Assembly (NCBI RefSeq): GCF_017945865.1
Contig: NZ_CP072829.1
Location: forward strand, 310,001 to 374,000
Length of the DNA: 64,000 nt
Reading direction: 5' to 3'
Origin: Xiamenia xianingshaonis
GTDB lineage: Bacteria > Actinomycetota > Coriobacteriia > Coriobacteriales > Eggerthellaceae
Positions 41,009 to 44,426 of the stretch are shown piece after piece (position 1 is the stretch's first letter; each line of letters begins with the position of its first letter). The notes beneath the pieces were generated by a model, which was given only the letters and a program-made list of their open reading frames with translations, was not told where the DNA came from and made no database searches. Both the position numbers and the translations under genes were made by a program.

Positions 41009-41267
41009 GCGGTGCGGCCTGGCGCAACATCTGCGACAGGTGCCGCTGACGGCAAAACCCCAGGTCAAACAGTGCAACTTCGATGCGACCGTCATGCCCT
41101 CTCGCTTTTTGCCCGCAGCCTCGGTCCCGCTGCCGCCACCTGTCGGCTCTGGGGAGGGGCGGGGTTTTGCGGGGCTTGTGAAAAAGCGCAAAGACGCGTC
41201 ACTGCCGAAACAATGTCTGTAACATGGCAAACGTATTGCACGGTGAGACCATAGAGAAAGGTTATTG
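41009..41267. other. Gene-free stretch before the surface protein gene
   Basis: No gene is seen. The last 30 bases contain the AGAAAGG ribosome site of the surface protein. An exact promoter could not be assigned; TATTGC-type and AACATG elements near 41220-41240 are not convincing. Confidence 0.4.
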
Positions 41268-44200
41268 ATGTCGAAGCCGATTCTTTCGAAGAAGACCTAC
41301 CGGGGGGGGGGAGGCAGAGTTCTCGGCCTGATCCTTTCAGGCACCCTCGCCTTCGGCATGGTCCCGGCGGCCGCCCTGTCTCAGGCGGCGCTGGACGCGA
41401 CTTTCGCGCACGCGGAGGCATTGCCGGGCACGAACGGCACCCTTGACGGCTGGACGGCCGGCAACGTCGCCTCAAACCTCAACGTCACCTTCCCTAGCAG
41501 CTGGAACCCCGGGGACGCCGTGTACAGCGGCGCGGCCCACGAGTTCGCCCTGGCCGACCTCGACGTGACCGCCACGGTCGAGGAGGGCGGAAGCGAGGGG
41601 CTCGACTGGGCCGTTTCCCCTTCCAGCCCCGGCACAAGCTACGTCGCCAAGCTCGACACCGACTGTTTCACCGTCGTCTCTCTGACGCATACGTCGCCCG
41701 ACGGCTGGACCCAGACCGACCTGACGGGCAAGATCTCGTCCTACCTGAGCTCCGGCATGCTCAGGCTGACCGATGCCGGCACCTACAGGGTCGGCATCGG
41801 CGTCGCGGGCATCGCCAACGCGCCCGGCCTCGACGAGGTCGCCACGACCATCACCATCGCCCCCTTTGCCCTCACGAATAGCAATTGCACGGTGGAAGCC
41901 GATAACGATCACGTCAGCCGCTTCCCGCCCGAACCGATGGGCTACGACGTGAGGAACCCCGTCGTGAAGCTGAAGAACGGAACGACGCTCGAGCAGCACG
42001 TCGACTACGCGATCTCCCGCTTGGAGCCTGGCTTTCCGTCGGGAGGCGTAACCCCGTGGTCCTTTAGCGTCTTAGGCTTGGGCAACTACACGGGCACAAA
42101 CGATCAAGGCTCCTTCAATGTGTGCGACAAGAGCCTCGATGATGCGACGACCGCCCTGGCCGCTCCGAATGATCCGATCTTCTACGACGGCGCTGAGAAG
42201 ACCCCCGGCGTCACCGTGCGGACCCGCGAAGGCCAGACGCTGGAAGTGAACACCGACTACAAAGTCTCCTACAGGAACAACGTCGACGCCGGCAAGGCAA
42301 TGGTCTACGTCACCGGCATAGGCACTTACGCAGACCTCTGCGTCGCCGGTTTCAATATCCAGCCGCTGCAGCTCGACGGCGCCCCCGCCGACGTCAGGCT
42401 CGAGGGGGCGGACAGCCTGGTCTACACCGGCGAGCCCCTCGAGCCCGAGGTGGCGTGGAGCAGCAGCACCACGACCCCGACCAACGACGGCTACACGGGC
42501 GGGGAGATCAATCTCGGTCAGTACACCGACGACCTGACCTGCACGTACGAGAACAACGTGGACGCCACCACGGGCGGGCAGAGTGCCTACGCGGTGATCT
42601 CCAGCAAGACGGGCAACTTCGAGGGCGAGCTGAGGGTCCCGTTCGACATCAAGCGGGCGACGCTGACGGAAGACAACGTGACCATCGCCGCTGCGGGCCC
42701 GGGCCCTCTCGACGCCGACGCGGTGAAGGTCACGTTCGGCGAGAGGACGCTCGTCGCCGACACCGACTACACGGTTTCGACCTTGGGCACGGTTCCCGGC
42801 TCCGTGGTCGCAACCGTCACCGGCACCGGCAACTTCCAGGGCACGGTCCAGAAGAAGGCGGACGTCCTCTACGACATCGCCAAGGCCGACGTCACGGTCG
42901 AGCCCGCCGTCTACAACGGCAAGGCCCAGGATCCCAAGGTCGAGGTCAGCTACACGGCCGGCGGCCAGAAGGTCGTCGTCGACCCGAGCGACTACGACGT
43001 GGAGGTCAAAGGGGACGCCACGAACGCCGGAACCTATCTGGTGACGGTGACCGGCAAGCAGAGCGAGGGCTGGATCGGCTCGGTGAACCGGGACTTCGTC
43101 GTCAATCCGGCGACGGTCGCCGCCGAGCCGCAGGTCTCCTACGACGACGCCGGCGCCTACCAGGTGACGGTGCCCGGCCTCGTCGAGGGCGTCGACTTCG
43201 ATGTCTCGGCCGACCCCGCCCGGCGCGAGCTCACGGTCACCTACAAGGGCAACTACACCGGCACGGCCGTTGTGGGCTACGTGCCCGCGTCCGAGCCTGA
43301 CGCGCCTGACGTGCCCGGCGGCTCCAACGGCTCCAACGGCTTGGGCGGTTCTGGTGGTTCGGATGAGCCTGGCGAGCCTGGGGATCCTGACGAACCCGGC
43401 GGGTCCGGCGAGCCTGGCGAACCCGGCGGTTCGGATGAGCCTGGCGGGTCCGATACGCTCGGCGGCTCGGGCGGGTCTGGTGGATCCGACGGCTCCGGTG
43501 GTTCCGGCGACACCGATGAGCCTGGGGATCCTGACGAATCCGGCGGCTCGGGCGAGTCTGGGGATCCCGATGTGCCCGGCGAGCCCGGCGGTCCGGATGA
43601 GCCCGGCGGGTCCGATACGCCCGGCGGCTCGGGCGGCTCCGGCGGGTCTGGCGAGCCCGGCGGCTCCGATACGCTCGGCGGCTTGGGCAGCTTCGGTGTC
43701 TCCGGCGAGCCCGGCGGCTCGTGCGCCTGCGGCTGCCCTGGCATGCCCGGGGAGCCCGGCGGCTCCGGCGGGCCCGCCGTCCCGCCCGCCCCGCCCTCGG
43801 GTGGCGGCTGGTCCGGCTCCGGCGAGGACTGGGCCTACTACGAGGACGGCGAGCCCGTCAAGGGCGGCTGGAGGCTCATCGGCGGCGAGTGGTACCACTT
43901 CGAGGAAAACGGCAGGATGACCGACCCGCAGTGGTTCCAGGACGTCGACGGCAGGTGGTATCTGCTCAACCAGTCCCAGGAGGGCCCCTACGGGGCGATG
44001 CTCTCCGGCTGGCAGCTCGTCGACGGCGAGTGGTACTACCTGAACGAGAGGCACGACGGCTTCTTCGGCGCCATGCTCTCCGGCTGGCAGAAGGTGGACG
44101 GCGAGTGGTACTACCTCAACACCAAACACGACGGCACGTTCGGCAAGATGCTCTCCGGCTGGCAGCTCGTCGACGGCGAGTGGTACTACCTCAACGAGAG

Positions 44201-44426
44201 GCACGACGGCTTCTTCGGCCGCATGCTCTCCGGCTGGGCCAAGGTCAGAGGCGAGTGGTACCTGCTGAACACCAGGCACGACGGCACCTTCGGCCGCATG
44301 CTCACCGGCTGGCAGAAGGCCGGCGGCAAGTGGTACTGGATGGACGCCTCGGGAGAGATGGCCTCAAGCGAGTGGGTCGGCCCCTACTGGGTGAACGCCT
44401 CCGGCGTGTGGACCGCCACCCGCTAG
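41268..44426 (+). CDS. Large secreted protein with MBG-like domains and C-terminal cell-wall-binding repeats
   Basis: The 1052-residue protein has a signal peptide (LILSGTLAFGMVPAAALS) and several bacterial Ig/MBG-type modules, for example VYNGKAQDPKVEVSYTAGGQ. A linker of about 160 residues of Gly/Ser/Pro/Asp/Glu repeats (GEPGGSDEPGGSDT-like) follows, then about eight choline/cell-wall-binding-type repeats of the pattern GWQLVDGEWYYLN. A run of ten G (41302-41311) encodes Gly residues just before the signal-peptide core and could shift frame by slippage. AGG arginine codons are frequent, unlike neighbouring genes. It sits between repeat copies B and C. Probable adhesin or wall-attached surface protein. 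Confidence 0.9.
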   Translation: MSKPILSKKTYRGGGGRVLGLILSGTLAFGMVPAAALSQAALDATFAHAEALPGTNGTLDGWTAGNVASNLNVTFPSSWNPGDAVYSGAAHEFALADLDVTATVEEGGSEGLDWAVSPSSPGTSYVAKLDTDCFTVVSLTHTSPDGWTQTDLTGKISSYLSSGMLRLTDAGTYRVGIGVAGIANAPGLDEVATTITIAPFALTNSNCTVEADNDHVSRFPPEPMGYDVRNPVVKLKNGTTLEQHVDYAISRLEPGFPSGGVTPWSFSVLGLGNYTGTNDQGSFNVCDKSLDDATTALAAPNDPIFYDGAEKTPGVTVRTREGQTLEVNTDYKVSYRNNVDAGKAMVYVTGIGTYADLCVAGFNIQPLQLDGAPADVRLEGADSLVYTGEPLEPEVAWSSSTTTPTNDGYTGGEINLGQYTDDLTCTYENNVDATTGGQSAYAVISSKTGNFEGELRVPFDIKRATLTEDNVTIAAAGPGPLDADAVKVTFGERTLVADTDYTVSTLGTVPGSVVATVTGTGNFQGTVQKKADVLYDIAKADVTVEPAVYNGKAQDPKVEVSYTAGGQKVVVDPSDYDVEVKGDATNAGTYLVTVTGKQSEGWIGSVNRDFVVNPATVAAEPQVSYDDAGAYQVTVPGLVEGVDFDVSADPARRELTVTYKGNYTGTAVVGYVPASEPDAPDVPGGSNGSNGLGGSGGSDEPGEPGDPDEPGGSGEPGEPGGSDEPGGSDTLGGSGGSGGSDGSGGSGDTDEPGDPDESGGSGESGDPDVPGEPGGPDEPGGSDTPGGSGGSGGSGEPGGSDTLGGLGSFGVSGEPGGSCACGCPGMPGEPGGSGGPAVPPAPPSGGGWSGSGEDWAYYEDGEPVKGGWRLIGGEWYHFEENGRMTDPQWFQDVDGRWYLLNQSQEGPYGAMLSGWQLVDGEWYYLNERHDGFFGAMLSGWQKVDGEWYYLNTKHDGTFGKMLSGWQLVDGEWYYLNERHDGFFGRMLSGWAKVRGEWYLLNTRHDGTFGRMLTGWQKAGGKWYWMDASGEMASSEWVGPYWVNASGVWTATR

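Follow-up and report, generated by a model that had tools for sequence, protein, structure and literature searches.

A run of ten G residues within the signal-peptide coding region of a large surface-protein gene is, judging from comparisons of sequence, very probably an ON/OFF switch operated by slipped-strand mispairing, and its gene one of a multi-gene family of surface proteins that would be phase-variable in this way. The run lies in the 64-kb stretch of DNA that we analysed (the window) and had been singled out in a preliminary description; an exact count confirms ten G (41302–41311, + strand), with TACC before and AGGC after. Nowhere else in the window does a G or C run attain 7: the other G runs extend to 6 at most and the C runs to 5. 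The tract begins 34 nt after the ATG at 41268, against the 35 bases first estimated, and frame analysis bears out the proposed open frame of 1052 aa, which ends at the stop codon 44424–44426.

The gene (CDS 41268–44426, + strand) is in the ON register in the present assembly. A Shine-Dalgarno-like sequence, GAGAAAGG (41254–41261, +), whose AGAAAGG is invariant in the whole surface-protein family, precedes the start codon (41268–41270, +), and the start of the signal-peptide n-region (41268–41301, +), kept in paralogues, encodes MSKPILSKKTY and the first base of an Arg codon. Beyond the tract comes the signal peptide's hydrophobic core, VLGLILSGTLAFGMVPAAAL (41319–41378, +), which is reached in register only. 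Because of the TACC prefix, the gene is in frame with 7, 10 or 13 G. The earlier expectation that one G gained or lost would abolish the protein held in silico: a change of 1 or 2 G always gives a truncated product of 20–59 aa (G8, 58 aa; G9, 20 aa; G11, 59 aa; G12, 21 aa). We also looked for a downstream start that would bypass the tract and found none usable, as the only in-frame starts of the body are the ATG at 41268 and an adjacent TTG, both 5′ of the tract.

The encoded protein matches the cell-wall-binding assignment made earlier, with choline-binding / cell-wall-binding repeats above cut-off at its C terminus (43779–44423, +; PF19127, 82 bits, cut-off 27; PF01473, 74 bits, cut-off 20.5). 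A choline-binding-type repeat match was found in 18 of the 18 family members searched, and binding of choline or a wall polymer by these repeats is predicted from the domain match. An AlphaFold2 model of residues 48–678 shows tandem Ig-like β-sandwich domains (41856–43300, +; pLDDT mostly 85–95) resembling S-layer and adhesin chains; the TM-scores are low overall (0.2 or less), so domain type alone is taken from the fold comparison. In Pfam the Ig-like region gives weak PF07523 (Big_3) matches, in paralogues only. A low-complexity linker rich in Gly, Ser, Pro, Glu and Asp follows (43300–43830, +) and is much shorter in the paralogues. Two other assignments of the window protein were rejected: as a pneumococcal PspA/PspC protein, since the NCBIfam scores do not exceed 119 bits where the cut-offs are 700–850 and only the repeats match, and as a neisserial Opa β-barrel, since it carries Ig-like domains and choline-binding repeats instead. 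Surface display is suggested by the domain matches and by a signal peptide judged by eye, and the family proteins may have an adhesive or antigenic role.

Taken singly, the G10 tract is within chance expectation. A Markov estimate expects 0.10 such runs (G only), and shuffled windows give an expectation of 0.19 G10-type runs over both strands, with at least one in 13 of 100 shuffles. The significance of the tract comes from its recurrence at the same site in paralogues. A scan of the 2.26-Mb genome to which the window belongs returned 20 runs of G9 or longer, ten of which occupy the equivalent site in ten paralogues, the window gene included; the window tract is thus one of about ten switches in the genome, of which the preliminary description saw one. 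A further 11 genes carry a tract at the equivalent site in Slackia sp. ZJ119, a sister species in the Eggerthellaceae placed in one genus with the window genome. The shared cassette reads ATG TCN AAR ... TAC(C) G(n), with G9 to G13 across the 21 genes of the two species, followed by the signal-peptide core and an open frame of ~1040–1395 aa. Members have this 5′ cassette and C-terminal repeats in common; what lies between differs. That the G run is a functionless accident of a GC-rich genome, as its appearance in shuffled windows and the further, non-coding G9+ runs of the genome might suggest, is extremely improbable, given that 21 paralogues in the two species have it at one and the same codon position.

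The family has a narrow distribution. The cassette pattern, sought in the genomes of 60 relatives, is confined to the window genome and Slackia sp. ZJ119, bar one unrelated short match, and a peptide-pattern search of GTDB named genomes, its reach limited by the patterns, found the family in Slackia sp. ZJ119 only. The genus members G001 and G003 lack it. A repeated intergenic element of ~130 bp (~72–97% identity across loci and species) was also observed 5′ of most members (e.g. L067, L068, L070, L088), roughly 150–1000 nt upstream of the family ATGs.

We read the register of each gene from one consensus sequence per genome, so that the comparison is between paralogues and species. Genes with a TAC prefix are ON with 8, 11 or 14 G and those with TACC with 7, 10 or 13 G. 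Three of the ten genes in the window genome are ON (the window gene, G10 TACC; 1642k, G11 TAC; 1750k, G10 TACC) and the others are OFF (985k, 1395k with G13, 1466k, 1486k, 1625k, 1745k and 2052k). Together with Slackia sp. ZJ119, where 2 of 11 are ON, this gives 5 ON and 16 OFF genes among 21, which fits the expectation of one third (P = 0.25). The registers differ by prefix, with 1 of 16 TAC genes and 4 of 5 TACC genes ON (Fisher P = 0.004, indicative only as members share ancestry). Of the 16 TAC tracts 15 are OFF, somewhat above the two thirds expected under random registers (P about 0.014), and this excess suggests that tract lengths do not vary freely. In the OFF genes we found no other in-frame ATG preceded by a good Shine-Dalgarno sequence; in the sister gene L109 (G9), ATGs in frame lie 53 and 83 nt 5′ of the tract, both lacking a Shine-Dalgarno sequence.

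Homopolymers longer than 8 are error-prone, consensus assemblies are the sole source of these counts, and in the sister assembly several family genes lie close to contig ends. It could therefore be argued that the G counts are miscalled and the genes always in frame. We consider this quite unlikely. Equivalent tracts and mixed registers occur in two separately assembled genomes, and miscalling would need to have made 15 of 16 TAC tracts wrong yet left 4 of 5 TACC tracts right. Whether or not some counts are wrong, the presence of a long, uninterrupted tract at one site in each of 21 genes remains real, and the tract-free copies show that the protein can do without it. The caution about assembly error raised in the preliminary description was reasonable for a single tract; it cannot account for the pattern in 21 genes.

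The tract-free copies serve as natural controls. Loci A and B, which are syntenic between the window genome and Slackia sp. ZJ119, are both in frame: locus A encodes YRGGNK, and at locus B a Tyr is followed by GGGG coded GGA GGA GGG GGC, with GCG-GGA-GGG-GGC in the sister. In the sister, the orthologue of the window gene, whose tract is interrupted (CCGGGGAGGGGGC), is likewise in frame. As these copies encode a similar n-region, the peptide itself does not require a G run.

The OFF genes bear the marks of continued selection. Not one internal stop follows the tract in the 21,410 codons of the 16 OFF genes, whereas, at the observed dS, absence of constraint should have left ~28–67 stops in each pair. 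Values of dN/dS are 0.53–0.77 for OFF pairs and 0.60–0.64 for pairs that include an ON gene. The absence of stops and the ON-like dN/dS indicate that OFF copies are kept functional, as expected of genes that would be switched on part of the time. Alternatively, the OFF genes might be pseudogenes in decay, or silent donors recombining into a few expressed genes, a view that draws on the OFF majority and on bodies that appear to have changed 5′ cassettes. At locus A the upstream DNA is syntenic in both species and the sister's body is closest to another locus of the window genome (72% identity), and in the window genome 1745k and 2052k have nearly identical 5′ cassettes and different bodies. Family members are therefore likely to recombine with one another, to judge from these patterns. 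Decay is contradicted by the lack of stops and by dN/dS values like those of ON genes, and silent donors would need none of the Shine-Dalgarno sequence, start and signal peptide that OFF copies retain; a slippage tract would be superfluous in them as well. We regard either version as highly improbable.

The intactness of OFF genes could also be accounted for if RNA polymerase or the ribosome were programmed to slip on the G run, yielding some full-length protein at any tract length. Slippage during the transcription of homopolymers is well established. Programmed sites usually keep one register, however, and here lengths vary (9–13), the register is not conserved and the family includes tract-free members, which makes this account highly unlikely as a replacement for DNA-level switching. 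The two processes are compatible, and some leak in expression could accompany slippage of the DNA.

Replication slippage would meet little known opposition in these genomes. MutS was found in 0 of 30 relatives' genomes, the window genome included, where 11 of 14 control genomes matched. The MutL matches were N-terminal ATPase fragments under the cut-off, as related ATPases would give, and NucS matches in the window genome and its relatives were partial and weak, none of them convincing. All Coriobacteriia analysed in an earlier survey lack both NucS and MutS-MutL (PMC5290159). Since no MutS, full-length MutL or convincing NucS is detectable, slippage should escape known mismatch repair, and its rate may be raised here as a result.

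Poly-G tracts also occur outside the family. A second surface family carries one where the signal peptide ends, G9 and ON at G000:C1:1906452-1906460 (L073) and G10 and OFF at G000:C1:394379-394388 (L063); the sister has a G10 OFF gene (G002:C12:379798, L152) that is 57% identical to a G9 relative that is ON. Elsewhere in the Coriobacteriia, poly-G just 5′ of the signal-peptide core appears sporadically in unrelated large secreted proteins: five times in G032 with both registers seen (L174, L177, L178, L180, L181), once each in G047 (L186), G022 (L187) and G042 (L214), and as a tandem pair in G006 (L189, L190). The genus member without the family, G003, has other 5′ coding poly-G tracts (L110, L114, L117, L123, L140), some ON and some OFF. 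A duplicated G9 (G000:C1:2086143-2086151 and 2089980-2089988, L076) lies ~60 nt 5′ of the ATG of two neighbouring long frames and is a possible promoter or leader switch. Back-to-back G/C runs of 11–26 at G002:C34:142212-142267 (L154) are possibly an assembly artefact. An order-wide enrichment of ATG...G9 was considered and set aside, since in GC-rich genomes overlapping matches and runs in non-coding DNA confuse the counts. Outside the family, most of the G9+ sites that we checked are of another kind than signal-peptide tracts, so that we claim recurrence only, not enrichment.

The arrangement recalls the opa genes of Neisseria, about ten related surface genes with CTCTT repeats in the signal-peptide coding region, which are set ON or OFF independently by frame and have variable, recombining bodies. 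Here too there are about ten paralogues, each with its own repeat in the signal-peptide region, an ON/OFF state set by frame, and variable bodies. The repeat there is CTCTT and the products are outer-membrane barrels, whereas here G is repeated and the products carry Ig-like domains and choline-binding repeats in a Gram-positive actinobacterium; the resemblance would be one of switch design, with no homology claimed. The closest documented actinobacterial case is Gardnerella, also in the Actinomycetota, where long homopolymers occur in genes with surface-protein motifs and length variation of one tract was seen by Sanger sequencing (PMC11287997); those tracts lie mostly 5′ of ORFs, in varied gene families and in a class other than Coriobacteriia. 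Neisseria hmbR and hpuA (PMC3786947) and the Campylobacter poly-G phasome (PMC6321876) share the G repeat and frameshift ON/OFF control, but in single or diverse genes rather than in a set of paralogues that share a 5′ cassette. Listeria inlA (PMC2831843) offers a 5′-end homopolymer and reversible frameshift in a Gram-positive surface protein, although the tract is poly(A), in a single gene, and mainly inactivating. Surface phase variation is described in the same family, Eggerthellaceae, for the Eggerthella lenta capsule (PMC13174815), by DNA inversion rather than slippage. In a largely open-access literature we saw no description of phase variation by homopolymers for the Coriobacteriia or for Eggerthella/Slackia.

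Tract length sets the frame, both registers occur among paralogues and species, and OFF alleles are otherwise intact. The slippage phase variation put forward in the preliminary description is thus supported by same-site tracts in 21 genes, mixed registers, intact OFF genes, tract-free paralogues and the lack of known mismatch repair. Each switchable gene would carry a conserved cassette of Shine-Dalgarno sequence, ATG, short basic n-region, (C)G9–13 and signal-peptide core, and replication slippage would alter the G count by one or more. With an in-register count, a protein with a complete signal peptide would be exported, bound to the wall through its choline-binding-type repeats and display its Ig-like domains; out of register, translation would stop before export, after ~17–21 codons in most members (20–59 in the window gene). 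Such switching would be reversible, and its rate may be high. The loci would switch independently of one another, so that cells of one clone may express differing subsets of the repertoire. More tentatively, and with somewhat less than even confidence, we suggest that Coriobacteriia without known mismatch repair use n-region poly-G as a general surface contingency device, which in this genus would have become an opa-like family with bodies exchanged between 5′ cassettes and in which a single C before the tract (TACC versus TAC) decides the default: with 9–10 G, the lengths met most often, TACC genes would be mostly ON and TAC genes mostly OFF.

If this reading is true, a little-studied, gut-associated actinobacterial class would have stochastic, multi-locus surface change, relevant to phage sensitivity, immune recognition and adhesion. 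Reference annotations of such genomes can wrongly call most members pseudogenes or startless. A class without MutS-MutL and NucS would also offer a natural setting in which to measure homopolymer instability without known mismatch repair.
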